A DNA stretch of 64,000 nt, taken from the NCBI GenBank assembly GCA_963995525.1, contig OZ023214.1:10158331-10222330 (forward strand), written 5' to 3'. The DNA comes from Escarpia spicata (Eukaryota; Annelida; Polychaeta; Sabellida; Siboglinidae). The position numbers and the translations under genes are program-made. The notes under the pieces are model-generated. The model did no database searches and had not been told where the DNA came from. It saw only the letters and a program-made list of their open reading frames with translations. Shown in pieces: positions 2,961 to 62,418 of the stretch; the first letter of the stretch is position 1, and each line of letters begins with the position of its first letter.

Positions 2961-5172
2961 TACAGTTTCTCCTATCTAATGTTTCCCGCATCCTTGACAC
3001 TGTGTAGGTGTTGATGGTTAGTAATACCTTACAGAGATGCTACAGTTTCTCCTATCTAATGTTTCCTGGGACCTTGACACTGTGTAGATGTTGGTGGTTA
3101 GTAACACCTTACAGAGATGCTACAGTTTCTCCTATCTAATGTTTCCCGCATCCTCGACACTGTGTAGGTATTGGTGGTTAGTAACACCTTACAGAGTTGC
3201 TACAGTTTCTCCTATCTAATGTTTCCTGCAACCTTGACACTGTGTAGGTGTTGGTGGTTAGTAACACCTTATAGAGATGCTACAGTTTCTCCTATCTAAT
3301 GTTTCCCGCATCCTTGACACTGTGTAGGTGTTGGTGGTTAGTAACACCTTACAGAGATGCTACAGTTTCTCCTATCTAATGTTTCCTGCAACCTTGACAC
3401 TGTGTAGGTGTTGGTGGTTAGTAACACCTTACAGAGATGCTACAGTTTCTCCTATCTAATGTTTCCTGGGACCTTGACACTGTGTAGATGTTGGTGGTTA
3501 GTAACACCTTACAGAGATGCTACAGTTTCTCCTATCTAATGTTTCCTGGGACCTTGACACTGTGTAGATGTTGGTGGTTAGTAACACCTTACAGATATGC
3601 TACAGTTTCTCCCATCTAATGTTTCCTGGGACCTTGACACTGTGTAGATGTTGGTGGTTAGTAACACCTTACAGAGATGCTACAGTTTCTCCTATCTAAT
3701 GTTTCCTGCAACCTTGACACTGTGTAGGTGTTGGTGGTTAGTAACACCTTACAGAGATGCTACAGTTTCTCCTATCTAATGTTTCCTGGGACCTTGACAC
3801 TGTGTAGGTGTTGGTGGTTAGTAACACCTTACAGAGATGCTACAGTTTCTCCTATCTAATGTTTCCTGGGACCTTGACACTATGTAGATGTTGGTGGTTA
3901 GTAACACCTTACAGAGATGCTACAGTTTCTCCTATCTAATGTTTCCTGGGACCTTGACACTGTGTAGATGTTGGTGGTTAGTAACACCTTACAGAGATGC
4001 TACAGTTTCTCCTATCTAATGTTTCCTGGGACCTTGACACTGTGTAGATGTTGGTGGTTAGTAACACCTTACAGAGATGCTACAGTTTCTCCTATCTAAT
4101 GTTTCCTGGGACCTTGACACTGTGTAGGTGGCTACAGTTTCTCCTATCTAATGTTTCCTGGGACCTTGACACTGTGTAGGTGTTGGTGGTTAGTAACACC
4201 TTACAGAGATGCTACAGTTTCTCCTATCTAATGTTTCCTGGGACCTTGACACTGTGTAGGTGTTGGTGGTTAGTAACACCTTACAGAGATGCTACAGTTT
4301 CTCCTATCTAATGTTTCCTGGGACCTTGACACTGTGTAGGTGTTGGTGGTTAGTAACACCTTACAGAGATGCTACAGTTTCTCCTATCTAATGTTTCCTG
4401 GGACCTTGACACTGTGTAGATGTTGGTGGTTAGTAACACCTTACAGAGATGCTACAGTTTCTCCTATCTAATGTTTCCTGGGACCTTGACACTGTGTAGA
4501 TGTTGGTGGTTAGTAACACCTTACAGAGATGCTACAGTTTCTCCTATCTAATGTTTCCTGGGACCTTGACACTGTGTAGATGTTGGTGGTTAGTAACACC
4601 TTACAGAGATGCTACAGTTTCTCCTATCTAATGTTTCCTGGGACCTTGACACTGTGTAGATGTTGGTGGTTAGTAACACCTTACAGAGATGCTACAGTTT
4701 CTCCTATCTAATGTTTCCTGCGTCCTTGACACTGTGTATATGTTGGTGGTTAGTAACACCTTACAGAGATGCTACAGTTTCTCCTATCTAATGTTTCCTG
4801 CAACCTTGACACTGTGTAGATGATGGTGGTTAGTAACACCTTACAGAGATGCTACAGTTTCTCCTATCTAATGTTTCCTGGGACCTTGACACTGTGTAGG
4901 TGTTGGTGGTTAGTAACACCTTACAGAGTTGCTACAGTTTCTCCTATCTAATGTTTCCTGGGACCTTGACACTGTGTAGATGATGGTGGTTAGTAACACC
5001 TTACAGAGTTGCTACAGTTTCTCCTATCTAATGTTTCCTGCAACCTTGACACTGTGTAGATGTTGGTGGTTAATAACACCTTATAGAGATGCTACAGTTT
5101 CTCCTACCTAATGTTTCCTGCGTCCTTGACACTGTGTAGGTGTTGGTGGTTAATAACACCTTATAGAGATGC
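2961..5172. repeat. 80-bp satellite array, 28 units
   Basis: A head-to-tail array of an 80-bp unit beginning TACAGTTTCTCCTATCTAAT: 27 full units plus one of 52 bp at 4081-4132 that shifts the register. Each unit contains an imperfect inverted repeat (GGTGTT ... AACACC). Three variants differ near unit position 27-33: CGCATCC or CGTCC, GGGACC, and CAACC. The GGGACC type fills an unbroken run in the middle (about 3761-4692), while the ends are mixed. No coding potential is seen. Confidence 0.95.
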
Positions 5173-10658: not shown

Positions 10659-13025
10659 CTAGTCAATGTCGTTATCAAATTTATTCTTGTCAGCAGACCG
10701 TGCCCGGTTTGCTCTGTCTTTCTCTAGTTTCGTTTTACCCTTTGATTTGTCTGAGTAGTTTGTAACTTTGGTTACGTGCCAAGAGTGCCTCGTTTTTTCC
10801 GGAATTGGTATGGATGAGAGATAGCGCTGTTGTTTGTGTTCTGGTTTATGTGTTGTGTGTAATTCTGTTTTTATCGCAGTCTGTGTTACGATATGTAGTG
10901 GTAGAGTTTGTTTTAGTTTCTCTCTACTGTCTTGTGGCACTTGTGAGCTGTCTGACAGGTTTTGATGTTCTGTTGCGTGAATTCTGTTCACGTGTTGCAT
11001 AGTCCTGTTGTTTATTTGTCTTTCACTGGTATCGGCTGACAAGCCGATGTGTGTCTGTTTCTGGCCTAGCTCATTGGTTGTCATTGTCTTTCCTGCACCA
11101 GCCATTTTATTGGGCACATTGCTTCTGTTTCTGTTGCTGTCATTTGCCTGGCTGCCTTTCTGCGGCCCTGTCGAACTCGGTCGGTTGTCTGAGGCATTCG
11201 ACGGGTGAATTGGTGCAGCCACAGGCATGTGTTTGATCACATTCTGTCTCGTTATTCTGAAGACATATTTCTCTTCGTACGTGATTGGAACACGAATGGG
11301 TCCAGAGTTGTCATTGATGCTGCGCCGAGGTTGGTTGGTTTGGCGATGCGACGTGAGGTTGTGCTTCTCCACAGAACCTTTCAGTTCGCTCTCATGTAGG
11401 TATAGGAGTGGTCGGCCTTTGAGATTGGGCGGAGTCTCACACATCATGTGCTCGGGTGCAAAGAACGACACAGAGTTATTGCGCACCCACATGACGAGCC
11501 AGTAGATGGACTTGTCACAATGCCACGGGTTGCCTGATAACTTGATGGCTTGCAACGAGGGGAAGTGTTTAGGGAAGTCAGAGGGGAGACTCCGCAGATT
11601 GTTGTTCATCAGATTGAGGTTCTCCACTGAGTCGAGATAGTCCTCGTAGAAGGCGTCCTGCTCCATGTGACCAGTAAGCATTGGTGTGTTGTGCATGTCA
11701 AGGAAACGCAGGTTCCTCATGTCCTTGAAGAGCGAGAGTCTCGCAAAGTGAATATTGTGACTGATCGATGCCAGCTGGAAGATACGCAGCTTGTGGAGTC
11801 CAACAAATGAATTGTCCTCGATTTTTGTGATCGGATTATTGGACAGGTCGAGCAGGTCGAGATTCGACAGGTTGCAGAAGGTGTAGTGCTTGAGCAGCTT
11901 GATTGAGTTTGTGTTGAGGTCGAGACTGCGCAGGTTATGCAGCTCGTCGAACGCGTTGTGGTGCACCATCTCAATCTTGTTGTTGTTCAGATAGAGGTGC
12001 TCCAGCTGGTTGCCGCGCTGGAACAGCCGTGGCGGCACTCGCCCGATGTTGTTGAAGTTTGCATACAGCCCCTGCAGACTCATAGGCAGGTTGCGGGGCA
12101 TACGCTTGATGAGATTCTTACCGATGTACAAGTTGTTGAGCACTCGCAGTCCGGTGAAACTGTTCCGGTGAATGCGGCTGATCCGGTTACGGTTCAGATC
12201 GAGCACCTGGATCTGACGCGTTTTCCGGAAGTCCCGCCGATCGATCCGAGTGATATTGTTCTCGGACATGCGCAGGTCTTTGATGCTGTATGGGAGACCG
12301 CGCGCCACTCGAGTCAGACTGCAGTTTGTGAAGTCTATCAACTCCAGATGGTACTTCGGTCGGAAGTCAAATGCTATTGTCTTTATTGGATTATCACGTA
12401 GCACGAGAAACTTCAGCAGTGGCAGATAGCGGAACGTGCGTCGGTGTATGGTCGTGATGCTGTTGTTGCGCACGTCAAGCACGCTCAAGCGCTTGTTCGT
12501 CACGAACGCATGGCGTCCGATGCGATGGATGCGGTTATTTGCGATGTTAATCAGCTGCACGTTTGTGAGATCAATGAAGATGTCATCGATGCGTGTCAGT
12601 TGGTTGTCCCGCAGCGATATCACGCGCAGTCGTCGCAGCCCGTAGAACGTCTCCGTGGCGACCCGCCGCAGCTGGTTCTGCGTGAGACTCAACGAGATGA
12701 GGGAGGTGAGGTTGAGGAACGTGCCACGCTCGATGCGTGCAATGTGGTTGTTCTTGAGCAGGAGATGTTGCAGCCAGGGCAGCTGGTCGAACCACGTCAC
12801 ACGCAGTCTCTTTAGCGCATTGTTGCGCAGGTAGAGGACTGTGACGTTCCGGTGGAATGTCGGCACAAACTGAAGGTGTTGGTTGTCGCAGTAGGCCTGA
12901 GTGACGTGACACAGACACATGGAGGGGCAAGAGTCTAGGTGCTGGGCGTCCATTGACTGCTCGGCGTGGGTCAGCACCAGTAGTAGGAGGAGTGTCGCAG
13001 GCTGGACATGGTCAGTGCCACCCAT
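10659..13025 (-). CDS. secreted leucine-rich-repeat protein, intronless
   Basis: An uninterrupted frame of 788 codons. The first residues form a short hydrophobic signal (LLLLLVL at about 12-18), followed by an LRR N-terminal cap with clustered cysteines (CPSMCLC at about 33-39). About 18-19 leucine-rich repeats of 21-26 residues (LxxLxLxxN pattern) fill roughly residues 60-500. Some repeats are short, as in small leucine-rich proteoglycans. A C-terminal cap starts at NPWHCD and includes a later MC pair. The last 230 or so residues are polar, rich in Ser, Thr, Asn, Lys and Arg, with several N-glycosylation-type sites and no membrane segment, so secretion or matrix location is inferred. The start is the first Met before the signal peptide. 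The family resembles chondroadherin, podocan and slit-type LRR proteins, but no orthologue can be named. A short duplication lies just upstream (13022-13130). Confidence 0.9.
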   Translation of the reverse strand: MGGTDHVQPATLLLLLVLTHAEQSMDAQHLDSCPSMCLCHVTQAYCDNQHLQFVPTFHRNVTVLYLRNNALKRLRVTWFDQLPWLQHLLLKNNHIARIERGTFLNLTSLISLSLTQNQLRRVATETFYGLRRLRVISLRDNQLTRIDDIFIDLTNVQLINIANNRIHRIGRHAFVTNKRLSVLDVRNNSITTIHRRTFRYLPLLKFLVLRDNPIKTIAFDFRPKYHLELIDFTNCSLTRVARGLPYSIKDLRMSENNITRIDRRDFRKTRQIQVLDLNRNRISRIHRNSFTGLRVLNNLYIGKNLIKRMPRNLPMSLQGLYANFNNIGRVPPRLFQRGNQLEHLYLNNNKIEMVHHNAFDELHNLRSLDLNTNSIKLLKHYTFCNLSNLDLLDLSNNPITKIEDNSFVGLHKLRIFQLASISHNIHFARLSLFKDMRNLRFLDMHNTPMLTGHMEQDAFYEDYLDSVENLNLMNNNLRSLPSDFPKHFPSLQAIKLSGNPWHCDKSIYWLVMWVRNNSVSFFAPEHMMCETPPNLKGRPLLYLHESELKGSVEKHNLTSHRQTNQPRRSINDNSGPIRVPITYEEKYVFRITRQNVIKHMPVAAPIHPSNASDNRPSSTGPQKGSQANDSNRNRSNVPNKMAGAGKTMTTNELGQKQTHIGLSADTSERQINNRTMQHVNRIHATEHQNLSDSSQVPQDSREKLKQTLPLHIVTQTAIKTELHTTHKPEHKQQRYLSSIPIPEKTRHSWHVTKVTNYSDKSKGKTKLEKDRANRARSADKNKFDNDID

Positions 13026-13131
13026 AGTCGCACTCTACAACACAACACAGTATATGAATGGTGCGCATAGTCGCACTCTACAGTCTACAATACAGCAGGT
13101 AGACAGCTACACAGTACATGAATGGTGCCCA
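13022..13131. repeat. short direct duplication at the LRR gene 5' end
   Basis: CATAGTCGCACTCTACA occurs twice, followed each time by related sequence including the word ATGAATGGTGC. The first copy overlaps the LRR start codon, so the duplication copied the start-proximal region and 5' leader. Confidence 0.7.
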
Positions 13132-34809: not shown

Positions 34810-36878
34810 GTAGGGTACCAATGTGATGAATGTAACCCCGCTCCAAAGTGAACTCACCTGAACAAACTTGGAATCTGTTTTTCCTAAATGCTATGTAAAC
34901 TGATGGCATTTTGTGCTAGGATTTCTGTGGTTTTGTTTTGCATCATAGATCATATATTGATGATTTAATAGTTACTATTCGGCATATATTATATCTTGTT
35001 TTGGTTTTTCTGTTTGCAAATCCACAAGATATATATTGATTAATAATGTAGTATTTCATACCCTGCCATTTTCAAAACATCAAAACTATATATACAAAAT
35101 CTTTAAATGAGGAAATCTTTTTATTGCCCTTATTTTATACATATTATTCTGGCCAGTTTATGAAATATATTTAGGGTATTCAACACAAGATGATGTAGAC
35201 AGAAACTTAATCTCAGTTGACATTATGGAGTCCTTGAATGCGATCCCTGTCTATGACTGACTGTCAGACAGCTGCCAGGTCGGTTTTTGGAACAAATCTA
35301 GGATTAAATTTATATTCGTGGTTAAAAAGTGAACTGGTTGTGTTAGTTTGTTAGTCGACTTTGAACTGATCTTTGCTGCCACAAATATGTTATTACAGGT
35401 CACTGTTTCACCACAATGTGTTTTCAGGGCCCTGACAGTCACAGTGACACTCAGTCCGGTGACAGCTCTGCCAGTGGTGACAGCCAGGCCAAAGTCCAGG
35501 CCACACAGCCACCTAGCTATGAAGCAGAGAAGTATGTCATCGCCATCGACTCATCGAGACACATAGGGAGAGTCCATTAATTGCATTGATGGAAACATGT
35601 GTAACTTGTTAGCCACAACATAGTATCATGCTCTTTCTCCCTCATTCCCTCCCTCCCTCCCTCCCTCCCTCCCTCCCTCCCTCCCTACTTCCCTTCCTCC
35701 CTCGCTCCCTCCCTCCCTCCCTCGCTCCCTCCCTCGCTCCCTCCCTCCCTCGCTCCCTCCCTCACTCCCTCCCTCCCTCACTCCCTCCCTCGCTCGCTCC
35801 CTCCCTCGCTCGCTCCCTCCCTCCCTCACTCCTTCCCTCCCTCCCTCGCTCCCTCCCTCGCTCCCTCCCTCCCTCGCTCCCTCCCTCGCTCCCTCCCTCC
35901 CTCACTCCCTCCCTCGCTCGCTCCCTCCCTCGCTCGCTCCCTCCCTCCCTCACTCCTTCCCTCACTCCCTCGCTCCCTCCCTCGCTCCCTCCCTCGCTCA
36001 CTCCCTCGCTCCCTCGCTCCCTCACTCCCTCCCTTGCTCCCTCACTCCCTCCCTCGCTCCTTCCCTCGCTCCCTCCCGCACTCCCTCCCTCGTTCCCTCC
36101 CTCGCTCCCTCCCTCCCTCGCTTCCTCACTCCCTCCCTTGCTCCCTCCCTCCCCACTTGCCTCCTTTGTATGGATGTTATTTTTAACCAACCAACATGTT
36201 ATAAATTGTAAATGAAATACTGTTGAAATGTCCATCAAACATTTGTTATGTGTCATTGGCATGTCACTGTTTCATCTACATGATTGTCACTGTGTGTCAT
36301 TGACATGTCATTGTAGGTGTCATCTACATATCACAGTGTGTCACCTACATGTCACTGTGTATCACCTACATGTCACTGTGTGTCATTGACATGTTGCTGT
36401 GTATCACTGACATGTCACTGTGTGTCACATGTCACTGTGCCACTGACATATCACTCTGTGTCATTGACATGTCACTATATATGTCACTGTGCGTCATGAC
36501 ATGTTGCTGTGTCGCCAGGTTCAGTCGGATGTCCCAGATCTTGTCTGTGGCGGGTAACACTGAGTGTTGTGACTGTGGGTCCGAGGAGCCGCGCTGGGCC
36601 AGCATCAACCTCGGCATCACCCTCTGTATAGAGTGCTCGGGCATACACAGGTGAGGGCTCATCTCCCACAGCAATGAACACCAGGATAATACTCATCTTT
36701 AGTTGTCTTGTCATATTTGTCAAAGTATATTGTAATAATTAACCCCTATTGTAATGTCTAGCTATATGTACATAATTTAAAGAAGACAACCGTTAATATA
36801 TTCTGGTGTATTTTTGTTTTTATAGTCTGTTATAAAATTAATTATGTTAAAATAAAACATGGGTGATCCTATGACAGC

Positions 36879-36926
<48 letters not shown>

Positions 36927-39900
36927 TTGCATGCGAGTGTGTGTATAGAGTTCTGTATGTGTATTTGTGCATGTTTCAGGAGTTTTGGGGTGCACATGTC
37001 GAAGGTGCGTTCACTGACACTGGACTCCTGGGAGCAGGAGCTACTCAAGGTGATGTTGGAGCTCGGCAACTCCGTCATCAACCAGATATATGAAGCCAAC
37101 GTGGACGAGAGCAAGTTTGTGCATGCCACGCCTCATTGTAACAGGTAGATGGCGCCACAAACACCACACTGAGTGAATTTTTATTACATGGTCAACGATG
37201 AAGTGACATGTGCCAAGAAACACTTGCTGGTTTGGCAGCCTGTAAATGTTGTGGTGTGAAGGCGGTGTGTGCACTTGAACATTATTTGTCTGTGTCCAGG
37301 TTTAAAAGATTGTCATTTAGATTAACATGTTAATTTATTATTTTCGTTACAGTTTGTTTTGTATTGCCAATCAGGTATACTTTGAAACTTGGACTTAATG
37401 TAACAGGCAAAAAGATGTATGCGAGGCTATGATAAAGTGACAAAATCTATTAATTTAACTGTACAAGGTGGATCAGTTCACATTCTATGTTTATTGTCTT
37501 GTGCACTTAGAATTAGAATGTCGGGATACAAAAGCAAACAAACCAGTTTTATGTGATCAGTTTTGTGTATTATCGTGACTGTGTTACCTGTCCCAATTCG
37601 TTCTTTGTTTGTTGAGTAGTGATAAAATATTCAGCTGACAGTTTGCGACTTTTAAGGCTTTGTTTTAAGAAATACAAGGTGACTTTCCAAAAAGGTAAGA
37701 TAAATGTTTGTTTATGTAGAGAAGTTCGGGAGGCGTGGATACGTGCCAAGTACATTGACCACGCCTTCGTACGCAAACTTCCCCAACCAGAGGACAATGA
37801 GAAGCCGTCGTCTCCAAAGACCTGGAGCGTGAAGAAATGGAAACGACGGTCGTCACCAAGTAAAACAACTAAGTCACCATCACCAGGGGCAACAGGAGCG
37901 CCCTCTGCTGGAGACGCTCCAGCTGTGGCGGAGAAGGGAACTTTGGTCGAAGGTATGTTATCGCGTTTCATCTATCATCATTCGTAATGATGTTGGTCAA
38001 ATGTAATGTAAGGTTTGTCGAGTTTACTTTAAATAGTTTCTGAAATACCTATTATGTTCTGCATAACCAAAGCAGTTGGTACTGACATTCAGATTTTAAG
38101 GCCAGATATCTCGGGTGAAATGGTGTTTTTGGAGTAAAAATACTCTAAATGGTTTTCTACCAGATTATGATATCTTTGTATGTATAGTATCAATAAAGTT
38201 AACTTCTATGACAGTTACATACCTCTAGGTGAGCTTTAATCATGAACCAACCATGTCGATATTAAATAATCAAGTCCATTATGCAATCTTTGACAGCCAT
38301 TATCTCAAAAACATTTTTTCTTAAATTTCTGCAATTGGAAACGGGATATCTCTGGGAGTAAAGATGCTATACAAGTAATACCCATAGTCCGCTTAATAAA
38401 AATGTGGTTAGTTTTTGTTTAATTGGTCGAAAGAATTTACTTTGTTAATTAAATCTGGCTATTTCTATTTGCTAAAATCAGTTGCTGATCCAGTTGTTAG
38501 CCTTCAAACCACTGAACTTGCCAACCGTGGGTTTTGAGAGAGGGCAACGAATGTAGGCAATATCAGCATAGAATCATATATTGCATTCTCTTGAATATTC
38601 CAATTTTAAATCGCATGAATTAATGTTTGGGCAAACATTAAGTTAATAATTTGTCTGGCGTTTCACCAAAACCACATAAAAATGCACAAATGAGACAACA
38701 CGCAGTAATGGATATAGGGTAGGTTTGCTTTTTCACCAAAAGAATTTGAAATGTGATCAGCTAAAAAAAATGTATTGAGGCACCTTTATCTAACATTCTC
38801 AGTTGTAAATGGCTTTATGAACAGGAGTTGATGTGTGTAATACTGTGTACGTTGTCCATGATGACTGGACTTGCCACTGACCACTGTTTGCAGGCCAGAG
38901 TCAGGACAGTGGACTTGGCGGCAGTACACAAGACGTCATTGTGTTTGGCACTGCGACCACAGAGCACCCAGTCACCACCCCGGCCGGTCAGTGATTGTCC
39001 ACTGTTTATCTGGACACATCTATTAATACGCTAACATTGGGACAGTGTAACAGAATCTCCTCCCAGGTGCTGAGGTCCAATCTCTTTCTATGGGCATTTG
39101 CTTCCTGGGACAACGTGCCTCAGATCTACCAATTGGTATTGTATTTCAGAAAAACAATGATAATTATTTATAGAGTTATTTGCTAAAAATTATTATTTTC
39201 TTTTGTTTTAAACTGTAGAGAGGTGAACTGCTGTACAGAGGGCACCACTGGAAACTCGTTTGATATTGAAATACTGTAATGCTAATAACTGATGTCCTTG
39301 GTTTGTTGCTCCATCGATGTGTGTAATGCTAACAACTGATGTCCTTGGTTTGTTGCTCTATCGATGTGGGTAATGCTAATAACTGATGTCCATGGTTTGT
39401 TGCTCCATCGATGTATGTAATGCTAGTAACTGATGTCCTTGGATTGTTGCTCTATCGATATGGGTAATGCTAATAACTGATGTTCTTGGTTTGTTGCTCC
39501 ATCGATGTATGTAATGCTAGTAACTGATATCCATGGTTTGTTGCTCCATCGATGTATGTAATGCTAATAACTGATGTCCTTGGTTTGTTGCTCCATCGAT
39601 GTATGTAATGCTAATAACTGATGTCCTTGGTTTGTTGCTCCATCGAAGTGTGTAATGCTAGTAACTGATGTCCTTGGTTTGTTGCTCCATCGATGTGTGT
39701 AATGCTAGTAATTGATGTCCTTGGTTTGTTGCTCCTTCGATGTGTGTAAGTTAGTTTCATTACAGCCATGCAGCACAGTGCTGTAGTAAGTTAGTTTCAT
39801 TACAGCCACGCAGCACAGTGCTGTAGTAAGTTAGTTTCATTACAGCCATGCAGCACTGTGGTGTAGTAAGTTAGTTTCATTACAGCCATGCAGCACAGTG

Positions 39901-42900
39901 CTGTAGTAAGTTAGTTTCATTACAGCCATGCAGCACTGTGGTGTAGTAAGTTAGTTTCATTACAGCCATGCAGCACGGTGCTGTAGTAAGTTAGTTTAAT
40001 TACAGTCATGCAGCACGGTGCTGTAGTAAGTTAGTTTCATTACAGCCATGTAGCACTGTGGTGTAGTAAGTTAGTTTCATTACAGTCATGCAGCATTGTG
40101 GTGTAGTAAGTTAGTTTCATTACAGCCACGCAGCACTGTGGTGTAGTAAGTTAGTTTCATTACAGTCATGCAGCACGGTGCTGTAGTAAGTTAGTTTCAT
40201 TACAGTCATGCAGCACTGTGGTGTAGTATGTTAGTTTCATTACAGCCATGCAGCACTGTGGTGTAGTAAGTTAGTTTCATTACAGCCACGCAGCACTGTG
40301 GTGTAGTAAGTTAGTTTCATTACAGCCATGCAGCACGGTGCTGTATTAAGTTAGTTTCATTACAGCCATGTAGCACTGTAGTGTAGTAAGTTAGTTTCAT
40401 TACAGCCATGCAGCACAGTGCTGTAGTAAGTTAGTTTAATTACAGTCAAGCAGCACGGTGCTGTAGTAAGTTAGTTTCATTACAGCCATGTAGCACAGTG
40501 CTGTAGTAAGTTAGTTTCATTACAGCCATGCAGCACTGTGGTGTAGTAAGTTAGTTTCATTACAGTCATGCAGCACAGTGCTGTAGTAAGTTAGTTTCAT
40601 TACAGCCATGCAGCACAGTGCTGTAGTAAGTTAGTTTCATTACAGCCATGCAGCACTGTGGTGTAGTAAGTTAGTTTCATTACAGCCATGCAGCACTGTG
40701 CTGTAGTAAGTTAGTTTCGTTACAGTCATGCAGCACGGTGCTGTAGTAAGGTAGTTTCATTACAGCCATGCAGCACTGTGGTGTAGTAAGTTAGTTTCAT
40801 TACAGTCATGCAGCACAGTGCTGTAGTAAGTTAGTTTCATTACAGCCATGCAGCACAGTGCTGTAGTAAGTTAGTTTCATTACAGCCATGCAGCACGGTG
40901 CTGTAGTAAGTTAGTTTCATTACAGCCATGCAGCACTGTGGTGTAGTAAGTTAGTTTCATTACAGCCATGCAGCACGGTGCTGTAGTAAGGTAGTTTCAT
41001 TACAGCCATGCAGCACTGTGGTGTAGTAAGTTAGATTCATTACAGTCATGCAGCACAGTGCTGTAGTAAGTTAGTTTCATTACAGCCATGCAGCACAGTG
41101 CTGTAGTAAGTTAGTTTCATTACAGCCATGCAGCACAGTGCTGTAGTAAGTTAGTTTCATTACAGCCATGCAGCACTGTGGTGTAGTAAGTTAGTTTCAT
41201 TACAGCCATGCAGCACTGTGGTGTAGTAAGTTAGTTTCATTACAGCCATGCAGCACAGTGCTGTAGTGAGTTAGTTTCATTACAGCCATGCAGCACTGTG
41301 GTGTAGTAAGTTAGTTTCATTACAGTCATGCAGCACTGTGGTGTAGTAAGTTAGTTTCATTACAGTCATGCAGCATGGTGCTGTAGTAAGGTAGTTTCAT
41401 TACAGCCATGCAGCACTGTGGTGTAGTAAGTTAGTTTCATTACAGCCATGCAGCACTGTGGTGTAGTAAGTTAGTTTCATTACAGCCATGCAGCACAGTG
41501 CTGTAGTGAGTTAGTTTCATTACAGCCATGCAGCACTGTGGTGTAGTAAGTTAGTTTCATTACAGCCATGCAGCACTGTGGTGTAGTAAGTTAGTTTCAT
41601 TACAGTCATGCAGCATGGTGCTGTAGTAAGGTAGTTTCATTACAGCCATGCAGCACTGTGCTGTAGTAAGTTAGTGTCATTACAGTCATGCAGCATGTTG
41701 CTGTAGTAACGTAGTTTCATTACAGCCATGCAGCACTGTGCTGTAGTAAGTTAGTGTCATTACAGCCATTGCAGTGTGACTAAATGCTTCCCAGAGATGG
41801 TGTATGATTGAACTAGTTGCCAGGGAGTGATGTATAAAGAACTTTGAGCAGTCCTGAGGACTGGGTACTGCGCTATAGAAGAACTTACTTGTTTTTATTG
41901 TGGTCCTGTTGTTGATGCAGATGAGGACGAGGACTCCATGAGTGAACCAGAGACCGATCCAGACACACAGTCGACGACATCTTATGAAGACTTCAGTAAG
42001 CTGCACCCTGACATGTTGCTGTATAAGGCCGCCCGGGCCCGCAATCTGCCTGTGATGCGAGAGGCACTGGCAAACGGGGCCGACCCCAACTGGCAGGACG
42101 AGGAAGAACACCACCAGACCCCCCTCATGAAGGCCATCGCCAGTGTGAGTGTCATGCGAAATGTTTGTCACGTGTATTTCTTCTAATGATACAATAACCA
42201 GACTCTCTCATGAAGGCCATCGCCAGTGTGAGTGTCATGTGAAATGTTTGTCACATGTATTTCTTCTAACGATAAATAATCAGACTCTCTCATGAAGGCC
42301 ATCGCCAGTGTGAGTGTCATGCGAAATGTTTGTCACGTGTATTTCTTCTAATGATACAATAACCAGACTCTCTCATGAAGACCATCGCCAGTGTGATTGT
42401 CATGCGAAATGTTTGTCACGTGTATTTCTTCTAATGATAAAATAACCAGACTCTCTCATGAAGGCCATCGCCAGTGTGAGTGTCATGCGAAATGTTTGTC
42501 ACGTGTAATTCTTCTAATGATAAATAACCAGATTTTCTCGTGAAGGCCATCGTCAGTGTGAGTGGCACGCGAAATGTTTCTCATGTGTATTTCTTCTGAT
42601 AAAATAACGAGACCTAACTCTTGAAGGTCATCACCAATGTGTCACGCGAAATGTGTACTGTGTGTACTTCTTCTAAAAGTTATATAATAATAATTCTAAT
42701 AGTGTCAGACTTGTGTCAACTGTGTGTTGTTTTTGTGTGTGATGTTGCAATATATTTTATTAAATATGTACCGGTTCATACTCTAAGTCACAAACTCGTG
42801 CTTGGACCATTGTATGTAGCTCACGTGTATTGCATTTCAATGTGACAAATGTCAAATATGAAAAATAATTAATCGATCAGGAAAATCAGGTTCCAGCTGG

Positions 42901-52673: not shown

Positions 52674-55567
52674 ATGGAAAAACTGCAATTTCACCCCAGC
52701 TGTGGTTGCAAGGCTGAGGTGACTAATGGTCAGTGCACGGCACGTCGACCAAAGTAAGTTTCCTGTCTGTCTATGCTATAGGCCTGTCGCCTCTCACCGT
52801 AATGACCGCTGATAGTAACTTGGTTGATGCTAGGTAACGTATATGGCTACATAATTTAGAAGAATAAACAAGACCCTGATTCAGAGTACGTAGTGTAATT
52901 AGAAAGTAAACACTTATTGGCATTCCTTTGATCTTCTATTCAATATAAACTGCAATGGCTACGGATAAGGATGCAGACACTATGTTTCCAGACACTAAAG
53001 CATGACATTAATAATGTTGTTTTGCAATGTTTGCTTAATTTTGTTTAGAACATAGCGGATGATGATTGCAATGGTGGTTAGTGCTGATGGGATTCAAATT
53101 ATAACTGTTGCAACATAATCCTTTTAATTCAGACCTGCAAATGGTGTTGTAAATTATGTTTGCAGTCCTGCGGATGACTTCTCCGATGGTGGTGTGCTGA
53201 CTAATCGCACACTGCGAGCTGGCGAGATATTTGAGGTGAAAATTGATGAGATGGTTGACTGTTGGATTGGCTCACTCGAGATCGGGGTGACAATTCATTC
53301 CCCCACAACCCTAAAGTTCCCGTCTTCGATGACAAATCTCTCGTCCGGGACATGGATGTTGACAGCTTATGGTGTGAAACACAACGGTACGGTTATCAAG
53401 GACGACTATGGACAGAGTCTGGATGACCTGACTGTAAGTATCACCAACAGAGGAAGACAGTTTAAACATACAGCTGTATTTATATGGTCAATTCAATCAA
53501 TTATGTAGATTATGAAACTTTTAAAATAAAATTTACTTGTCTAACCTTATTTGATTGTACTTAACATTTTTGTTTGTTCACTTTGTTGTCTTTTCTGAAA
53601 TACTGTATGTAATGGCCGTCACTGTTGTTGAATATAAATATATGTATATATATATACATACATGTATATATATATATATACATACAGCTAGTCAGAAGAC
53701 AACATTTAGTCTTGAGGGTTGCTCAAAGTGCTGCGCACTTCACCCCGTGGCAGACCTTTCATTCCTATGCCAATGCGACATCTCTGGAAAGCATTCAAGT
53801 TAAATCGTTTGAGTTTCTGCTGGAAAAGTACCATGGAAGGGCTTACTTTGTAACCACTGGCTGTTAAGGACCAGTTGCTACATTGACTGACATTATTAAA
53901 GGAAATAAAAACAAGGCATTAACTAAATCCGTTTTCCATGTGTACACAAAGTTTAACACTGTATGTAATATTTGAGAACATTAAAAAAATACCGAAAAAT
54001 ACAATTGTAGTATAAATTCGATTTTAAATCCGTCTGTGTAGTGATTCCTGCGGAAAATAAAAATTTAATGAGTTAGGCGATCACGTGGTATCGTGATGTC
54101 ACATGTGACATATACTCGCATCAGGCCGATCCTTTCCATGTATTCAAAGCATGTTTACAAGGATAGCTTTTGGGTTGAAACAAGTGTCAGAATGAGTTAT
54201 TGTGCGATATTCCGAAGTAATACAAACACTAGTCATCATAGAGGAACAAGCAGTTATCTTATGGTTCCATATGAATCCAATTGTATTCAAACCAAAGAAT
54301 GCGAATGGGCATACAACTTACCAGTCGACCAGGCTTCGCTGAGCTTCGGCTCGTTTTCAGAATAATTATATCGATTGCAACTCACCGGAGATAATCTACA
54401 CCAATAAACATACATAGCAAACATATATTGCATCCAGGTACAGAAAGTAGTTGTATAATCTCATAATATCACTAGAATATTGATATATGAAGGAGGAGTT
54501 GTACAATTTATCCTAACATAAATTAGTCAATAAATTTCCGTTGATCTCGGTAGCTCAATCAGTAGACGCGTTGGTTTCGTGTAATTTATTTTACAATCGG
54601 GCGACACCAGTTCAAGCCTGACACCAAATCATTGGTTTTCTTGACATTTTTTTGTTTGTTTTCACGAAGTAATATAAGACAAAGAATTTTTATACTATTA
54701 TGCACTGTTTGTAAATGTTTTTAAAATGTTGTAGTAATTATTTATTCGCCACAAAAATGAAAATATGGTAATTGTATATAACGATTTTTCTAAATTTTAT
54801 TTATCCAGACAAATATAATGTAATGGATGAATAATTAATTATATATATATATATAATTAATATATAATTAATTATACATCCATCAAACAAATTGACCTGT
54901 TGCAGATATGTGTAAGTGGAACTACAATGTTGGAAATTACTTCCTTTACAATGGTTTTTTTTTCTTTTCTTTTTTTCTGACCATATTTGTTATTTCACTT
55001 TCTTCCACCACCCCCCTCCAAGAACATAGTGTTTTGATTGGTGTTTTGTAAATAATCAAGTACACATATATTCCCAATTGGTACACTAATGCCTTTTGCC
55101 AGATTCGGTTCAATATTTACAAAGAACTTATTGAATCCATCAGCAATATCTGTCTTGAGACTTGACATTATATTTACACAAACCTGAGATCAGAACAATC
55201 ATTACTGCATATAATGACATCACTGGTCCACGTAATTGGACAGGCAATATATAGGTCTACTACTATTCATCAATGTGATTCAGTCTGTATAATATGAATC
55301 AATCAAAGCCATATCGTAAAGGGTGAAACATGGTCTGATCTGACACGTGGTTGTGTACTTTAAAATATATTCCGACAGTCCGTGTTTTCTGTTGTTTCTT
55401 GCAGCGGGGCGACCGTGTAGGAGTTGTCCGGAAGGAGGACGATACCCTTCACTTCACCATTAATGGTGTAGATCAGGGCAAAGCCGCAACCGACATCCCA
55501 GCGGGAGTTTATGGGGTGGTTGACCTCTTTGCACAGGCTGCCCAGGTTACCATCGTTGACAATTCAG
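52674..55567 (+). CDS. NHR-PARP exons 1-3: Neuralized homology repeat
   Basis: Exon 1 (80 bp) carries the start of the NHR (FHPSCG...NGQCTARRP) and ends at a strong GTAAGT donor; exon 2 starts one base into the split Asn codon and runs to SLDDLT; exon 3 supplies the C-terminal strands ([20 protein letters not shown] and [18 protein letters not shown]). All expected NHR strands are covered. Reading past 55567 would add only eight residues (GGMIHIAQ) before a stop at 55591-55593. Confidence 0.88.
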
Positions 55568-58500
55568 GTGGGATGATTCACATAGCACAATGATTACTAT
55601 TTAATAATTGCGTGAACATTACTGCAGAGATGCAAACAGTTAAATAGCATATAGGCGGAAAAGTTAAATAGCATATAGGCAGACAGATGAGTGTGCGACT
55701 GAACAATGTATTGAGTATACGATCCTCGGGTTTTATTCTTAATATTGTGATGTAGGTGGATAGAGTATTATCGCGATTTCTTTTTAAAGTTGTCCTTCTC
55801 AATAGTTAGTGAGTCCACTGCAGGTTACATATGTATACCCCCGTACAGGATAGTATGCTTCTCCTGGAATAGGCACCATGTAGAAGGGACTTACATAGTG
55901 TCTCTTTCGAAATACACATGCAAGATTCAATTTATTTGACCTTGTCTACATACACATTATATACATTAATACATTGGTAATATGAATAATATGTAAGGTC
56001 GGGGAGACTCCCGTTAAGACATATACTGTCGCTAGCACGGGAGCCACCCCACAAATGTAAACACTAACAACATGTACATAGTATGATCAGATTAGTAAAT
56101 TATAATGATTGCTTTAAGGATTACAAATATAGCAATTATGATTCATAATTTAAAAGATATATACGTAGACTGTGTGTACATTTTCTGAATGATAATGTCT
56201 GGTGTATTATTAACTGTCTCAACTACACGATATCTAATGCATTTTTTGGCAAATTCACGTTTGACTCTAGGCACACGCAGATCATTTTGTTTGCGTGTGT
56301 TGTGCTGTGTTGATGAATGTCATAGTTGTGTGTGCAAGGAATAACTTTGAATTATTCAGGTAACTGATTATTAATTAATTTGTAGTAGAAATTTAGTTGC
56401 TGGAGTCTGTAAATGTCATCCAATTTTAGTAATTGAAGTGTTTTATAAACAGGACTTGTGTGAGCATTGTATTTACTTAGGGATATTATTTGCATTTAAT
56501 CAAGCTACAGCTGAAATTAGAAATTCAAAGAGAAGCTATGAAAAAAAATTAGCTAGTAATATAAAACATGACAGTAAGAGTTTTTATGCGTATATTCGAA
56601 GCAAACAGAAAGTTCAGGATAAGGTCGGTCCTCTAGAAGATAGTGCTGGAAATACAATATCAGAGGGATTCTTAATGGCAGAAGACCTGAATGAGTATTT
56701 TAGTTCAGTGTTTACCAGGGAAGATATTAGTTCACTGCCAGTACCAGAGGCTAAGTTCAAGGGGGCAGATTCAGACTATTTAGGACAGTTAGTTGTAACC
56801 TCGGAAATGGTAGCTAAGAAAATAAGGGCTATGAAGGATAATAAATCACCTGGAGTGGACGGGATTCCGCCCAAACTACTATTGGAAATTGTAGAACAAA
56901 TTAGCGCACCGCTTGCAACAGTTTTCAATTTGTCATTAGAAGAGGGAGTGGTTCCTTTAGAATGGAAAGAGGCAAACATTATACCGTTATTTAAAAAAGG
57001 TTCGAGAAACAAGTCAGAGAACTATAGACCAGTGAGTTTAACATCAGTGATTTGCAAATTATTAGAAAGACTAATTAAAGATCACATGGTGGATTTTCTT
57101 GTTAAACATAACTTGATAAACCCATCTCAACATGGGTTTTTAAAAGCGAGGTCATGCTTAACAAATATGTTATGTTTTTTGGAAGACATCACTAGGTGGG
57201 TAGATGAGGGATCACCAGTAGATATCATCTATTTAGATTTTCAAAAAGCTTTCGACAAAGTACCACATCAAAGATTACTCCTTAAGCTAAATGCCCATGG
57301 CATAGGAAATGGTATAATAAACTGGATAGAAAAATGGCTGAATGACAGAAGACAACGTGTAGTAGTTGATGGGGAGGCTTCAAACTGGAAATCGGTATTG
57401 AGTGGGGTACCACAGGGATCAGTACTAGGACCAATATTATTCTTAATATATATCAACGATTTGGACGATGATATAACAAGCAAGGTGTTGAAATTTGCGG
57501 ATGATACAAAAGTGTTTAGAAGGATTAAAAGTGATGGAGACAGACATCATTTACAAGATGATCTTGATAGGTTGATCAAATGGTCTGAAAAGTGGCAAAT
57601 GCTGTTCAATTTTGGGAAATGTAAATGCCTCCACACAGGTCATGGGAATGAAGAGGTAAAATATAAAATGGGGGGTACTGTTCTAAGTACTACTGTAAAA
57701 GAAAAGGACTTAGGGTTAACCATTAGTGCTGATATGAAGGTTTCAGAGCAGTGCGGAATTGCAGCGTCAAAGGGAAATCAAATCCTTGGATTAATTAGGC
57801 GAAATATAGCGTATAAGAAAAAAGAATTAATAGTACCGCTGTACAAAACAATAGTGAGGCCTCATTTAGAATATTGTATACAAGCATGGAGGCCATATCG
57901 CAAGAAGGACATAGATATGCTAGAAAGAGTACAGAGGAGAGCGACTAAAATGATACCAAATCTGAGGGATCTTAGTTACGAAATACGCCTAAAAGAATGT
58001 GGTTTAACAACACTAGAGACCAGGAGATTGAGAGGAGATCACATAGAAGTGTTTAAAATATTGAATGGTTATGAAAATATTGATAGAAACATTTTTTTCT
58101 CAGTTAAGAAAGATAGAAGGACCAGAGGACATGAAGGTACATTAGTAAAGGAGCAGTGTAGATTAGATATAAGAAAGTTCTCATTCTCACAAAGAACTGT
58201 AAATGAATGGAACAGATTATCTCCTGATTGTGTTGGTGCTAGTAGCGTGAATATGTTTAAAAATAAAATCGACACACACCTTAAAAAGGCGGGATACATG
58301 TAGATAAAAAGTATTGGACTCTCGATAAGCCAAAAGGCTTCCTTGTCCAACTGCCATCCAGAGTAATTTTCTGGATGGCAATCTTGTTAAATCTTGTTAA
58401 ATCATTGCTTTTTTCTCTAATTTGAAAATCCAATGTGCCTGTTGACTCTATAAGAGGATACCATAATTAATATGAGGGAGGATAAGGTAATTATACATAA

Positions 58501-61500
58501 TATATAATGTTTGAAGTGGTAAACAGTATTTAAGTTTATTTAGAATTCCTATTGTTTTAGTTATTTTATTTGTTTCTTTGTTTGTGTGACTCTGCCAGTC
58601 TAAATGGTTATTTATGGTAATGCCTAAAAAATTGAAATAATTTACACCTTCAATGTTTGTTCCATCTATTTCTACTTTCTTTTGAGGCATATAAAAATCA
58701 TAAATTTAGTTTTGTGGGTATTTAGTGAAAGTTTAATTGCTTTCAATCCATCGCTAACCTTTGTGAATCCTTTGATAATATTTTCACGTTGCATTTGGCC
58801 TTCTGAAAGTTCAGATGACCTTAGTGTATTAGTAAGGTTAGTGTAATCTGCATATGTTACGAATTTATAAAGGTCACTCGAAAAAGCTATGTCATTGATG
58901 TATATAATAAAGAGGAGTGGTCCTAAAATAGAACCTTGTGGTACGCCATAATAAAGAGGAGTGGTCCTAAAATTGAACCTTGTGGTACGCCATAATAAAG
59001 AGGAGTGGTCCTAAAATTGAACCTTGTGGTACGCCATAATAAAGAGGAGTGGTCCTAAAATTGAACCTTGTGGTACGCCATAATAAAGAGGAGTGGTCCT
59101 AAAATTGAACCTTGTGGTACGCCATAATAAAGAAGAGTGGTCCTAAAATTGAACCTTGTGGTACGCCATAATAAAGAGGAGTGGTCCTAAAATTGAACCT
59201 TGTGGTACGCCATAATAAAGAGGAGTGGTCCTAAAATTGAACCTTGTGGTACGCCAGTGGTGATAACTGTTTCTATTAACATTTTCAGTTTCTACATATT
59301 GTTTACGATTGTACAAATAACTCCTACAAAGATAAAGTACTGTATCATTTAATCCATAGTAATTATAATTTTGTAACAATATATTATGATCAATTGTGTC
59401 AACCGCTTTTGATAAATCAAGGTATACATATTAATTGGTGTAGCCGATTTACCAAACCCTTGTATAATTCTATTCATAATTTCAAGTGTCGCAAATTCAG
59501 TAGAATGTTTCTTTCTAAAACTGTATTGGCTATTATAGTATAACATCTTGGAATGGAAATATTCGTGTATTTGATCAAACATTATCCTAATTTTTGAAAT
59601 AGCTGGCAAGATTGAAATTGGACGATTTTTTTTGTCAAGGTTAGAATTATCACTTTTTTTTAATGGGAATAACTTTATCAATTTTTTATTTGTTTGGAAA
59701 TATATCAGTCATTATGGGTTGATTTATAATTAGGGTGACTGCTTTGCTAATGTCATGTTTGATCAATTTTAATATGTTGGTTGATATACCATCTATTCCG
59801 CAACTTGATTTTGGCGGTAAGCGATCAATTATGCTGACAACACTATCTTCTTCAATTGGTTTAAAACTGAAGGTATGACGTGTTGGGTTTTTCGAATAAT
59901 CCCTGCAGTTGTAGTTAACTTAGAGGCTAGAGTTGGACCAATATTTGTATAAAAAAAAGTAGTTAAATTGATTTGCATTAATGTATTTATCGCTTTCCAT
60001 TTCTGCGTCCGCTTTGAACGAATCTAGAAATGATTCTTTCTTTCGTTTTTTTCTGAATACTTTCTTTAATTAAGCACCACGTCTTATTAATATCATGTTT
60101 ATGTTTTTTTATACTTGACTGATAGTGCATTTGCTTAGCCAGTCGAATCTTTCGTTTAGGAATTATATTATAAGTATGCAAACTAGTTTTGAGTTTACGG
60201 TATTGATCCGTAATTACCAGAGTATGTTTTATTCTTGCATACAATTTATTTCTTAACTTATTTGACCTAATAATGCCCAGAGGCAACATGATGTGAACAA
60301 AATTGCTCAAGTTTCAAAACGGTGGTCGATACCATGATTTGAACCCCGGTTCCTTTGATCGACTGTCCAGCTCTCTAACCGTTCGACTGCCGCAGTAGTT
60401 ATATCCATATCACAGGCGTATACATTTAAATAAAATGTTATATCTTTCCTACTATGGTTATAATTAATACGTTGAATGTTGTAACTACAATAATACAATT
60501 TATAAATACACAATCAAAACACAGCCTGACAAATATTGGTGAAAACAGGACACAATTAAGGTTTAAAAGTAGCAGTGCTATAGTTTATGCGTCAGTAAAA
60601 TAATGTTAATGCAGCAGAAGAACCAACACAGCAGCGTTAACCTGTTTAGGGAGTAAAAGTCTTAAGTGGTTGACAATCTCCTTCTTCAACCTTTGTCCCT
60701 TGCGGGATGGGGGCACTTTGCTTTATCCGTTCCGCACCCCGAGCAGTTATCACAACTAAACGCAATCTTTTGCCATTCTCCCACTCTCTGGGATGTTCAC
60801 AGATGTCCTTGCGATGTCTCACTTTACACTAGCTCTCAGTCTATTTTCGGACTTCCTCTTTTACTTTTACCTCCCTCTTCTTTTCTCCATTCTCTCTTGG
60901 TGAATATGGCTCCTTGCCCGTTCTCTGCATGTGTCCTGTCCATTGTTTCTCAGCTCCCAGCTAATGCCATTTCCATATGTTTCCTCATTCTGATTTCGTA
61001 TCTTAATTCCACCCATCTCCCTTCTGTCCAGTCGTCTAACATTACATATATTCTTTAAGCCAAATTGTTCTTTGCCATCTGGCACCTGTAGCTTCTCGTC
61101 ACACCTCCCTATCAGTGCAGTGAGTGGTCGCATACATTGCAATAACATGGGGTATTTTGCAGACTCTTTGGTGAACACCAGATCTATCTACCTGAAACAT
61201 TACGCGGAAAAGCCAATTCGTCTTCCGGAGAACTGGAAGGTAGTGGAGAACCTCAACGAAGAGACGGTCAAAACGGTAGAAGTGGTTCAGGATCTCGCGC
61301 ATGCCATCAAACAGCTTGTAGAGCTGACTTGGGATTATTCTCACGTTGGACATGGCAAAGATGCCAGAAACTTGAAACACACCTCCATCAATGTCACAAA
61401 AGTGGAGCAGATCGAAAGTACACATCTGTACAAAGAATACGAACATCAGAGGAAGAACTTCTGTGAACGCGCTGCCAAGAAGAGCTTCCCTGAGGTAGCA

Positions 61501-61937
61501 TGTGAAAACGGTGAAAAGGAGATACAGACCTCGGTGCACGGGATTCCTCTGTTGGACAGTCAGCTCATTCCAGAAATCAACGAACATTTCCTTTTCCACG
61601 GTGCGAAAATGGAATTCATTGATGCCATATTGAAGCAGGGAATTGATTTCCGCCTAGCCAACAAAGGCCTGTTTGGCAGTGGAGCCTATTTCTGTGAAAT
61701 GTCCACGAAAGCTGACCAGTACACTGGTAAATAATAGTTAATTAAATATTTCTCTCTCCCAATAATTATTATACTAACGTTATTATCGATGTATTCGTTG
61801 CGTATGTTGTCTGTTTATATATTTATATGCAGTGGCACCGTTTGAAGTTGATTAGTGAATTTGTCAAATGAATATTATATATCATTATATATATACATTT
61901 ATAATATATATATATATATATATCATTATAATATAAA

Positions 61938-61976
<39 letters not shown>

Positions 61977-62418
61977 CCATGCGTGTGTGTGTGCGTGCAT
62001 GGATGGGTGTAATGCGTGGATGTTTGGGTATATTCTGTGTGAGTTGGTCTGTGAGACAGTTGCGAGTGCAGTTTTTATGTCTTGTGCACACAAAAAAAGT
62101 TTATGTATTTTCTACTAAATACCAAATTACCTTCTTTCAGACTCGAAGAATGGCAGAGCAGACGGAGAACATGTTATGTTCCTCACCAAAGTTATTCTGG
62201 GACACAGCTACATCGCGAAGCGGGGAAACAGCAAGATGAAACGACCCCCGTGTGTTCATCACTGCACTGGTAAATGCGAGCACATGAAGAGCGAGTTTTA
62301 CGACTCGGTGATGGGAACTCACAAGGTCGCAGACACAAGGCTTTTGTTCCGTGAATTTATCATCTTTGAAGAAAGGCAATGCTATCCAACTTATGTCATC
62401 ACATATGTGAGGAAATGA
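52674..62418 (+). CDS. Neuralized (NHR) domain fused to a PARP catalytic domain
   Basis: Five exons: 52674-52753, 53166-53433, 55405-55567, 61163-61726 and 62141-62418 (stop TGA). All borders are GT/AG and phases match (2, 0, 1, 1), giving exactly 450 residues. Residues 5-170 form one Neuralized homology repeat: [93 protein letters not shown]. Residues 171-450 are an ADP-ribosyltransferase domain: [74 protein letters not shown], with H316, Y346 and E430 at the catalytic positions. Exon 4's acceptor (ATTTTGCAG) leaves two bases that complete a codon with the G ending exon 3. The start ATG follows an acceptor-like ATTTGTAG, so a 5' UTR exon upstream is likely. NHR domains bind proteins and lipids; the target is unknown. 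No RING or zinc finger precedes it. The main doubt is whether exons 3 and 4 are joined in mRNA. Confidence 0.8.
53700..53805 (-). mobile_element. SINE family 2, degenerate copy
   Basis: Words GGTTGCTCAAAGTGCTGCGC, TGGCAGACCTTTCA and CTCTGGAAAGCATTCAAGTT follow the order of the family 2 body with many changes. It lies in the NHR-PARP second intron, downstream of a TA-rich run (53638-53685). Confidence 0.6.
54540..54636 (+). mobile_element. tRNA-like SINE head or tRNA pseudogene
   Basis: GATCTCGGTAGCTCAATCAG at 54543 looks like a tRNA acceptor/D-arm with an A box, and CCAGTTCAAGCCTGAC about 60 nt later resembles a B box and T arm. The spacing and mismatched stem argue against a working tRNA. 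It lies in the NHR-PARP second intron. Confidence 0.45.
55800..55923 (-). mobile_element. SINE family 1, left half split by LINE B
   Basis: Plus-strand words GAGTCCACTGCAGG, TAGAAGGGAC and AGTGTCTCTTTCGAAA match the body of the SINE at 33990-34310 in the same order and orientation. The match stops at ACACATGCAA, where the LINE B tail begins. The continuation (AGGCAACAT...) is found at 60281. Confidence 0.7.
56496..58404 (+). mobile_element. LINE A: 5'-truncated CR1/L2/Jockey-like element with intact RT frame
   Basis: The open frame 56438-58303 covers 621 codons, but the first 20 or so are LINE B antisense; element sequence starts near [15 protein letters not shown]. Reverse-transcriptase blocks are all present: [57 protein letters not shown] (residues about 264-278), [20 protein letters not shown] and the catalytic FADD (about 353-356), then the thumb and C-terminal RxxRGHE and [12 protein letters not shown] motifs. 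The endonuclease domain is missing, so it cannot move on its own. The 3' UTR has an 11-bp perfect stem with a 7-nt loop (58352-58380) and ends with a duplicated ATCTTGTTAA unit, typical of CR1/L2 tails. The undamaged frame implies a recent insertion. Confidence 0.9.
58352..58380 (+). other. 3'-UTR hairpin of LINE A
   Basis: TGCCATCCAGA (58352-58362) and TCTGGATGGCA (58370-58380) are perfectly complementary around a 7-nt loop, just before the tandem tail. Such a stem is a plausible recognition structure for the element's own reverse transcriptase. Confidence 0.85.
58902..59256. repeat. 44-bp minisatellite made from an RT motif (8 copies)
   Basis: GTACGCCA recurs at 58941, 58985, 59029, 59073, 59117, 59161, 59205 and 59249, always 44 bp apart. 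On the minus strand each unit encodes the [13 protein letters not shown] motif of LINE B. Because 44 is not a multiple of three, the frame rotates from unit to unit. Confidence 0.95.
60281..60400 (-). mobile_element. SINE family 1, right half (tRNA-like head) split by LINE B
   Basis: Minus-strand reading gives a tRNA-like head with CGGTTAGAGAGCTGGAC (A-box side) and GGAACCGGGGTTCAAATC (B box), then a body ending GTTGCCTC. It matches the head of the SINE at 33990-34310 and continues the piece at 55800-55923. Confidence 0.75.
60401..61162 (-). pseudogene. intron with possible LINE C-terminal debris
   Basis: The minus-strand region 60800-61080 conceptually reads [19 protein letters not shown] and LDDWTEGRW in one broken frame, resembling the basic C-terminal tail of non-LTR polyproteins. 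There is no catalytic motif, and the assignment is tentative. The remainder of this stretch, up to the PARP exon acceptor, holds nothing recognisable. Confidence 0.35.
61163..62418 (+). CDS. NHR-PARP exons 4-5: PARP catalytic domain
   Basis: Exon 4 (61163-61726, donor GTAAAT) holds a helical N-terminal part, the VTKVEQIES start of the ART fold, H316 in LFHGAKM and Y346 in [16 protein letters not shown]. Exon 5 (62141-62418, acceptor CTTCTTTCAG) holds the remaining strands and E430 in [11 protein letters not shown] Cys/His-rich insertion [18 protein letters not shown] (about 394-411) sits where tankyrase runs directly from its PP to the DSV-like strand. Glu at the third catalytic position fits H-Y-E type enzymes that can extend poly(ADP-ribose), but chain length cannot be read from sequence. 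Confidence 0.88.
61880..61976. repeat. TA-rich microsatellite
   Basis: Long (TA)n runs in the last NHR-PARP intron, followed by a GTGTGC-rich stretch. Frames rich in Ile and Tyr here are artefacts. Confidence 0.9.

Follow-up and report, generated by a model that had tools for sequence, protein, structure and literature searches.

Gene structure and domain content

We analyzed a 64,000-nucleotide (nt) stretch of the genome of the siboglinid annelid Escarpia spicata (assembly GCA_963995525.1, contig OZ023214.1; hereafter the window), which corresponds to C11:10158331-10222330 of the 1.06-Gb host assembly, and searched the host genome for relatives of one gene within it. This gene, copy A, is predicted to join a Neuralized (NHR) domain to a PARP catalytic domain. 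It comprises five plus-strand exons within positions 52674-62418 of the window, with a coding sequence of 1353 nt, i.e., 450 codons and a stop. Its four introns are all GT-AG, and no frame break occurs across the 450 codons. The features of copy A are as follows, in window coordinates; B and C are two paralogs, and the NEURL4-like gene is a neighbor, all described below.

52674-52753, plus strand: exon 1; 80 nt from the ATG; first part of the NHR domain; donor AAA/GTAAGT
53166-53433, plus strand: exon 2; 268 nt, as in B, C, and NHR3 of the NEURL4-like gene; core of the NHR domain
55405-55567, plus strand: exon 3; 163 nt, as in B, C, and NHR3 of the NEURL4-like gene; end of the NHR domain; phase-1 donor CAG/GTGGGA
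55568-61162, plus strand: intron 3; 5595 nt, with retroelement open reading frames (ORFs) inside; 526 nt in B and 366 nt in C
61163-61726, plus strand: exon 4; 564 nt (561 nt in B, 570 nt in C); codes for the linker and the first PARP half, which includes triad residues H and Y
62141-62418, plus strand: exon 5; 278 nt including the stop, as in B and C; second half of the PARP domain

Searched against Pfam, the 450-amino acid (aa) product contains a complete Neuralized/NHR domain (PF07177; residues 6-168, profile positions 1-149 of 149, E = 1.2e-37) and a nearly complete PARP domain (PF00644; residues 242-447, profile positions 18-197 of 199, E = 7.8e-21). The PF00644 match scores 74.9 bits against a Pfam gathering cut-off of 26.7, which places the protein in the PARP/ARTD family. 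No family other than these two was matched by Pfam at E up to 1, and tblastn of the copy A protein against the window returned the five exons only, with nothing further at E below 3. The initial annotation had described three NHR exons and two PARP exons in order on one strand, 450 codons from ATG to stop, and an in-phase joint between exon 3 (ending in G) and exon 4 (starting with AC). Each of these descriptions agrees with our model, and the order and phase of the joint recur in both neighboring paralogs. Phase agreement alone would fit one third of random joints; because the exon order and phases are repeated in both paralogs, we do not attribute them to chance.

An alternative 461-aa model, in which exon 2 begins at an in-frame acceptor at 53133 and gains 11 codons, was dropped after the paralogs pointed to 53166. 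In a simple matrix, 53133 lies at the 94th percentile of AG sites versus the 72nd for 53166, and the weakness of the chosen acceptor counts against our model. We preferred 53166 because the same alignment position and the same 268-nt exon length are found in B, C, and NHR3 of the NEURL4-like gene, and because the Neuralized score climbs from 121.2 to 129.5 bits with this acceptor. The 461-aa model or parts of it were used in the protein searches outside the host genome, the NCBIfam search, the tblastn search of the window, a first ranking of splice sites, and the codon-usage test; the PARP half is identical in both models. An assembly gap inside the window was ruled out (0 N).

We also ran the seven ORFs of intron 3 through Pfam. 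Two of them are reverse transcriptases (PF00078), at 56375-58300 on the plus strand and 58675-59010 on the minus strand, and the other five have no Pfam match at E of 0.01. The initial annotation had placed nothing but mobile elements between the two halves; this stands for the two reverse-transcriptase ORFs but was not borne out for the five ORFs that lack a match. Eight 44-bp tandem units (99% matches) lie at 58904-59256, in and beside the minus-strand reverse-transcriptase ORF, where they repeat an 11-residue coding stretch.

A tandem array of three predicted NHR-PARP genes

Two paralogs of copy A lie beyond the end of the window:

C11:10230314-10223189, minus strand: copy B; NHR exons followed by PARP exons; open frame of 625 aa; directly beyond the window
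C11:10235490-10245716, plus strand: copy C; NHR exons followed by PARP exons; open frame of 626 aa

Three of the shared exons have the same length in A, B, and C (268, 163, and 278 nt), exon 4 measures 564, 561, and 570 nt, respectively, and the phases are identical. The intron between the NHR and PARP exons is 5595 bp long in A, 526 bp in B, and 366 bp in C. Copies B and C hold two NHRs, of which NHR-a spans two exons and NHR-b three (as found by Pfam for B and in the gene model for C), and A holds NHR-b alone. When NHR-a of B and of C were used as tblastn queries against the window, only the known NHR-b exons were matched at E below 1. In B and C, the homolog of copy A exon 1 is an internal exon, b1, which measures 88 nt in both. 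An AG is present 8 bases upstream of the copy A ATG (TTTGTAG/GTGAGAGCATGG), and exon 1 would be 88 nt as well if this AG were used. An upstream exon of copy A is possible, and the gene may have been truncated such that it now begins in what was once an internal exon. As read from these gene models, the three genes form a tandem array with one inverted member, and copy A is the shortest of them.

We calculated the ratio of nonsynonymous to synonymous substitution rates (dN/dS; NG86) for each pair of copies. For NHR-b, dN/dS is 0.24 (A versus B), 0.24 (A versus C), and 0.45 (B versus C); for the PARP half, the corresponding values are 0.28, 0.20, and 0.27. NHR-a, compared between B and C, has a dN of 0.25 and a dS of 0.93. 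The two tandem paralogs support the single NHR-PARP gene proposed in the initial annotation: their exons agree with it in order and phase and are nearly equal in length, and their NHR-to-PARP introns are short. As far as gene structure goes, the predicted fusion is very probably real.

Origin of the NHR exons

A gene with six NHRs, inferred from NHR exon matches grouped into six domains, lies 32 kb beyond copy C on the plus strand (C11:10277588 to about 10301976). Its NHR1 is 64% identical to the human NHR structure 2e63 (KIAA1787), which we take to be human NEURL4, and the two share a fork with support of 86/89. We call this gene NEURL4-like because of its six NHRs and the 64% identity of NHR1 to 2e63. 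A tree built from 18 NHR rows unites the fused NHR-b domains in a single clade (100/99), which NHR3 of the NEURL4-like gene joins (98/96). The exons of this NHR3 are 268 and 163 nt long, with donors ACT/GTAAGT and CAG/GTGGGG; the lengths equal, and the donors nearly equal, those of the fused genes. The fused NHR is just 19-32% identical to six other NHRs sampled from the host genome. The tree and the exon lengths make it highly likely that the fused NHR is akin to NHR3 of the NEURL4-like gene.

NHR-a is closest by identity to NHR1 of the NEURL4-like gene (67% in B, 55% in C). Two points weaken the case for a NEURL4-like origin. First, this placement of NHR-a has no supported fork in the tree. 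Second, the NEURL4-like rows of the tree were assembled from tblastn segments whose ends are approximate, and the row for NHR4 included some non-coding residues. PARP exon matches rarely occur near NHR exons in the host genome: within 200 kb of any of at least 49 NHR exon matches we found 3 of at least 47 PARP exon matches, all in the array, and the next nearest is 1.27 Mb away (genome-wide counts of large families, such as PARP and NHR exon matches, are lower bounds).

We suggest that the array probably arose by partial duplication of the NEURL4-like gene beside its parent, a direction that we infer. The NHR1 and NHR3 exons would have been duplicated and then joined to a PARP catalytic domain, and tandem duplication with one inversion would have produced A, B, and C. 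Copy A would later have lost its NHR1-type domain, or would never have carried one, and its NHR-PARP intron would have been enlarged, at least partly by retroelements.

The PARP half and its relatives

To locate the catalytic residues, we read the PARP half of copy A against tankyrase and PARP12, which gave the following positions in the window:

61597-61599, plus strand: triad histidine H316, in HGAK; A318 stands where tankyrase has S
61687-61689, plus strand: triad tyrosine Y346, from the tankyrase alignment
61711-61713, plus strand: A354, aligned with the K-S-N-Q-Y serine of tankyrase; alanine in all three copies
62251-62283, plus strand: C-x-H-x-C-x3-C-x-H cluster, a candidate metal site from residue 396, in an insertion relative to PARP12
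62353-62355, plus strand: triad glutamate E430, aligned to the glutamate of tankyrase YAEYVIY

The H-Y-E triad is kept in all three copies of the array. The best PARP kin in the host genome are four genes at C11:22.5-22.96 Mb, whose matches to exons 4 and 5 are 50-61% identical and are broken near the same place. Read by eye, all four also have H, Y, and E, and all four share with the array K-A-D-Q-Y in place of K-S-N-Q-Y. The Cys/His cluster occurs in all three array copies and in three of these four kin, and the insertion that carries it may bind metal. Unlike the array genes, the four have no NHR match at E of 0.01 in the 8.5-14.4 kb stretches upstream of them, and we refer to them as PARP-only. 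Exon 4 of the PARP-only genes opens with a shared VGAK/VGSK stretch that Pfam does not name above its cut-offs and that looks KH-like. Other PARP loci, among them stretches of C9 and C13, were compared by tblastn or, for three of them, by an ORF list; their PARP matches were weak or absent, and in this comparison an NHR was matched only in the array. AlphaFold2 run on exon 4 alone without an alignment was uninformative (mean predicted local distance difference test score of 34.6).

We consider the PARP half likely to be catalytically active. The copy A product would then be a targeted ADP-ribosylation enzyme, as proposed in the initial annotation: the NHR would dock client proteins, which may include those bound by NEURL4, and the PARP domain would ADP-ribosylate the docked clients using nicotinamide adenine dinucleotide (NAD+). 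Poly-ADP-ribosylation is possible for the copy A product; discussions of the catalytic glutamate give it a role in NAD+ activation and, for PARP1, in elongating the chain (PMC10789625).

Alternative explanations

The alternative that survives best accepts the fusion but treats the PARP domain as a pseudo-enzyme, comparable to PARP13 in humans, with a binding or structural role on the NHR scaffold. Two serines of the tankyrase NAD pocket (HG-S and K-S-N-Q-Y) are Ala in all three copies, that is, a trait common among PARPs is lacking, and this speaks both for a pseudo-enzyme and against an active domain; the K-A-D-Q-Y of the four PARP-only kin points the same way. NAD-pocket serines are common in PARPs without being strictly defining, and the K-S-N-Q-Y serine holds nicotinamide. 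Against a pseudo-enzyme stand the presence of H, Y, and E in all three copies and, by eye, in the four PARP-only kin, and a dN/dS of 0.20-0.28 across the PARP half. We regard this alternative as unlikely, though deserving of some weight.

Next, copy A alone might be decaying, with B and C as the working genes. The failure to detect NHR-a in the window and the 5.6-kb intron with its retroelement ORFs would both fit such a history. Its 450 unbroken codons and its GT-AG introns do not, nor does the dN/dS of copy A versus B and C (0.20-0.28), which compares with 0.27 and 0.45 for B versus C. Decay of copy A is, we think, improbable.

The last alternative is a pair of adjacent genes, an NHR-only gene that ends at a stop at 55593 and a PARP-only gene that starts at an in-frame ATG at 61147, with a like split in B and C. 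Reading on from exon 3 meets this stop after 8 codons. Several further observations speak for two genes. The exon 4 acceptor of copy A reaches only the 89.6th percentile. Every copy has an in-frame ATG near the start of exon 4, at 16 nt before the exon in A, at 82 nt before it in C, and at its second codon in B; in intron-like sequence, a comparable in-frame ATG occurs within 18 nt in 12% of cases. Intron 3 contains poly(A)-like motifs in two copies, ATTAAA at 307 nt into the intron in B and AATAAA at 132 and 141 nt in C. The host genome also has the four PARP-only kin, in which PARP exons stand without a detected NHR upstream. Because of the ATGs in three copies and the poly(A)-like motifs in B and C, the one-gene reading is slightly weakened and the two-gene alternative slightly raised. 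Copy A has no poly(A)-like motif for 1272 nt after exon 3, an absence that carries little weight because intron 3 of B and C holds such motifs. In exons 4 and 5, a codon-usage measure distinguishes the true frame from both alternatives, but it is of little help in placing the start of exon 4.

Against a split stand the exon 3 donor, which outscores 99.5% of plus-strand GT sites in the window, and the NHR-to-PARP introns of just 526 and 366 bp in B and C. We take the fusion as real because the ATGs sit at three different places, such that none is a conserved start, while the phase-1 exon 3 donor, the in-phase exon 4 acceptor, and the phases agree in all three copies. Two adjacent genes are hence very improbable. 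As a whole, the explanation that we favor, with considerable confidence, is a single NHR-PARP gene in an array derived by partial duplication of a NEURL4-like gene, in which the NHR would dock clients and the PARP domain would ADP-ribosylate them.

Comparison with known proteins

NEURL4 is the closest precedent. It is described as having six NHRs and a C-terminal ADP-ribosyltransferase (ART)-like domain (PMC8509805; PMC7955679). This ART is listed with an H-L-E triad and as missed by Pfam (PMC7955679), and elsewhere it is termed H-Y-E-like (PMC8509805). Like NEURL4, the array genes combine NHRs and an ART fold in one protein, and their fused NHR groups with NHR3 of the neighboring NEURL4-like gene, with the same exon lengths. 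They differ in having one NHR (A) or two (B and C) rather than six, and in that copy A has a clear PF00644 domain with H-Y-E where NEURL4 has a diverged ART.

The catalytic half has its best match in the Protein Data Bank (PDB) to PARP12, a clade 3 PARP (2pqf, E = 1.4e-13). Unlike clade 3 PARPs such as PARP12, copy A gives no Pfam match to a WWE, zinc-finger, or macro domain; it has E at the third triad place, where PARP12 has Ile, and carries the extra Cys/His insertion. Tankyrases come next among the PDB matches, with an alignable triad and with FG-x-G-x-YF-x-E and K-x-x-Q-Y in common. Copy A has no ankyrin or SAM match, however, has Ala for the K-S-N-Q-Y serine, and has its Cys/His cluster closer to the C terminus than the zinc loop of tankyrases. 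With Neuralized E3 ligases of the NEURL1 type, copy A shares the NHR domain but not the RING, for which Pfam gives no match.

In searches of the open-licence literature, we found no description of an NHR joined to a canonical PARP domain and no paper that has PF07177 together with PF00644. Citarelli 2010, Perina 2014, and PMC9688111 do not use the word "neuralized" in their main text. The initial annotation had called the architecture unfamiliar from well-studied animals. For an NHR with a canonical PARP, this agrees with that literature; the novelty is limited by NEURL4, for which NHRs with an ART-like domain are in print. An NHR combined with an ART fold is already known from NEURL4, with a diverged ART, in the accounts of PMC7955679 and PMC10450202. 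What appears new is a canonical PARP joined to an NHR, and other species may well carry relatives.

Searches outside the host genome gave no clear relative. Among prokaryote contigs there were five pattern matches, none of them confirmed, and among viral contigs no relative. Phage proteins gave a single weak hit, which falls in the PARP half (27.3% identity over 30% of the query, E = 7e-4), phage DNA gave no match to exon 4, and NCBIfam gave no match for the protein. Other unusual NHR combinations have been reported from invertebrates, e.g., NHR with TIR in centipede and oyster (PMC5094078), and SPRY-like domains, the Neuralized repeat included, are described as coupled to effectors in eukaryotic immunity (PMC8195603).

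Other features of the window

Elsewhere in the window, a long tandem array of 80-bp units extends over 2.2 kb (2960-5172), and a 791-codon open frame with many leucine-rich repeats lies on the minus strand at 10662-13034. On the plus strand, an ORF with an ArfGAP domain is followed by an ankyrin-like ORF below Pfam cut-offs (36304-42183); together they are perhaps one ACAP-like ArfGAP-ankyrin gene. A long tandem array of 40-bp units (50.7 copies) lies at 39746-41774. At 42124-42641 are about six tandem copies of an 83-bp unit, which begins in the ankyrin-like ORF (at LMKAIASV); it looks as though the end of an exon had been repeated along with the sequence behind it. The window contains no tRNA, and no Rfam family at its gathering score.

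Implications for NHR-guided ADP-ribosylation

In published accounts, the NEURL4 NHRs serve as scaffolds for protein interactions (PMC8509805), and p53 is reported to bind NHR3-4 of NEURL4 with more affinity (PMC5617467). Human NEURL4 has itself been proposed as a mitochondrial ADP-ribosyltransferase (PMC8003356, PMC8509805), although a domain survey, in its treatment of NEURL4, lists it as "PARP-related" and arguably no PARP (PMC10450202). We tentatively suggest, at somewhat less than even chances, that the array represents a lineage-specific family of NHR-guided ADP-ribosyltransferases, built beside NEURL4 by copying NHR1 and NHR3 onto a canonical PARP. If so, NHR scaffolds and ADP-ribosylation would have been paired a second time, independently. 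Canonical PARP activity would be brought to NEURL4-type clients, alongside or in competition with the diverged ART of NEURL4, and copy A would be the minimal, one-NHR form of the family. A new enzyme architecture seems to have come here from partial duplication next to the parent gene, and the exon lengths have stayed the same. A natural fusion of this kind would reveal which NHRs stayed with an ART, and it would offer a compact protein for asking whether NHRs steer ADP-ribosylation to clients.

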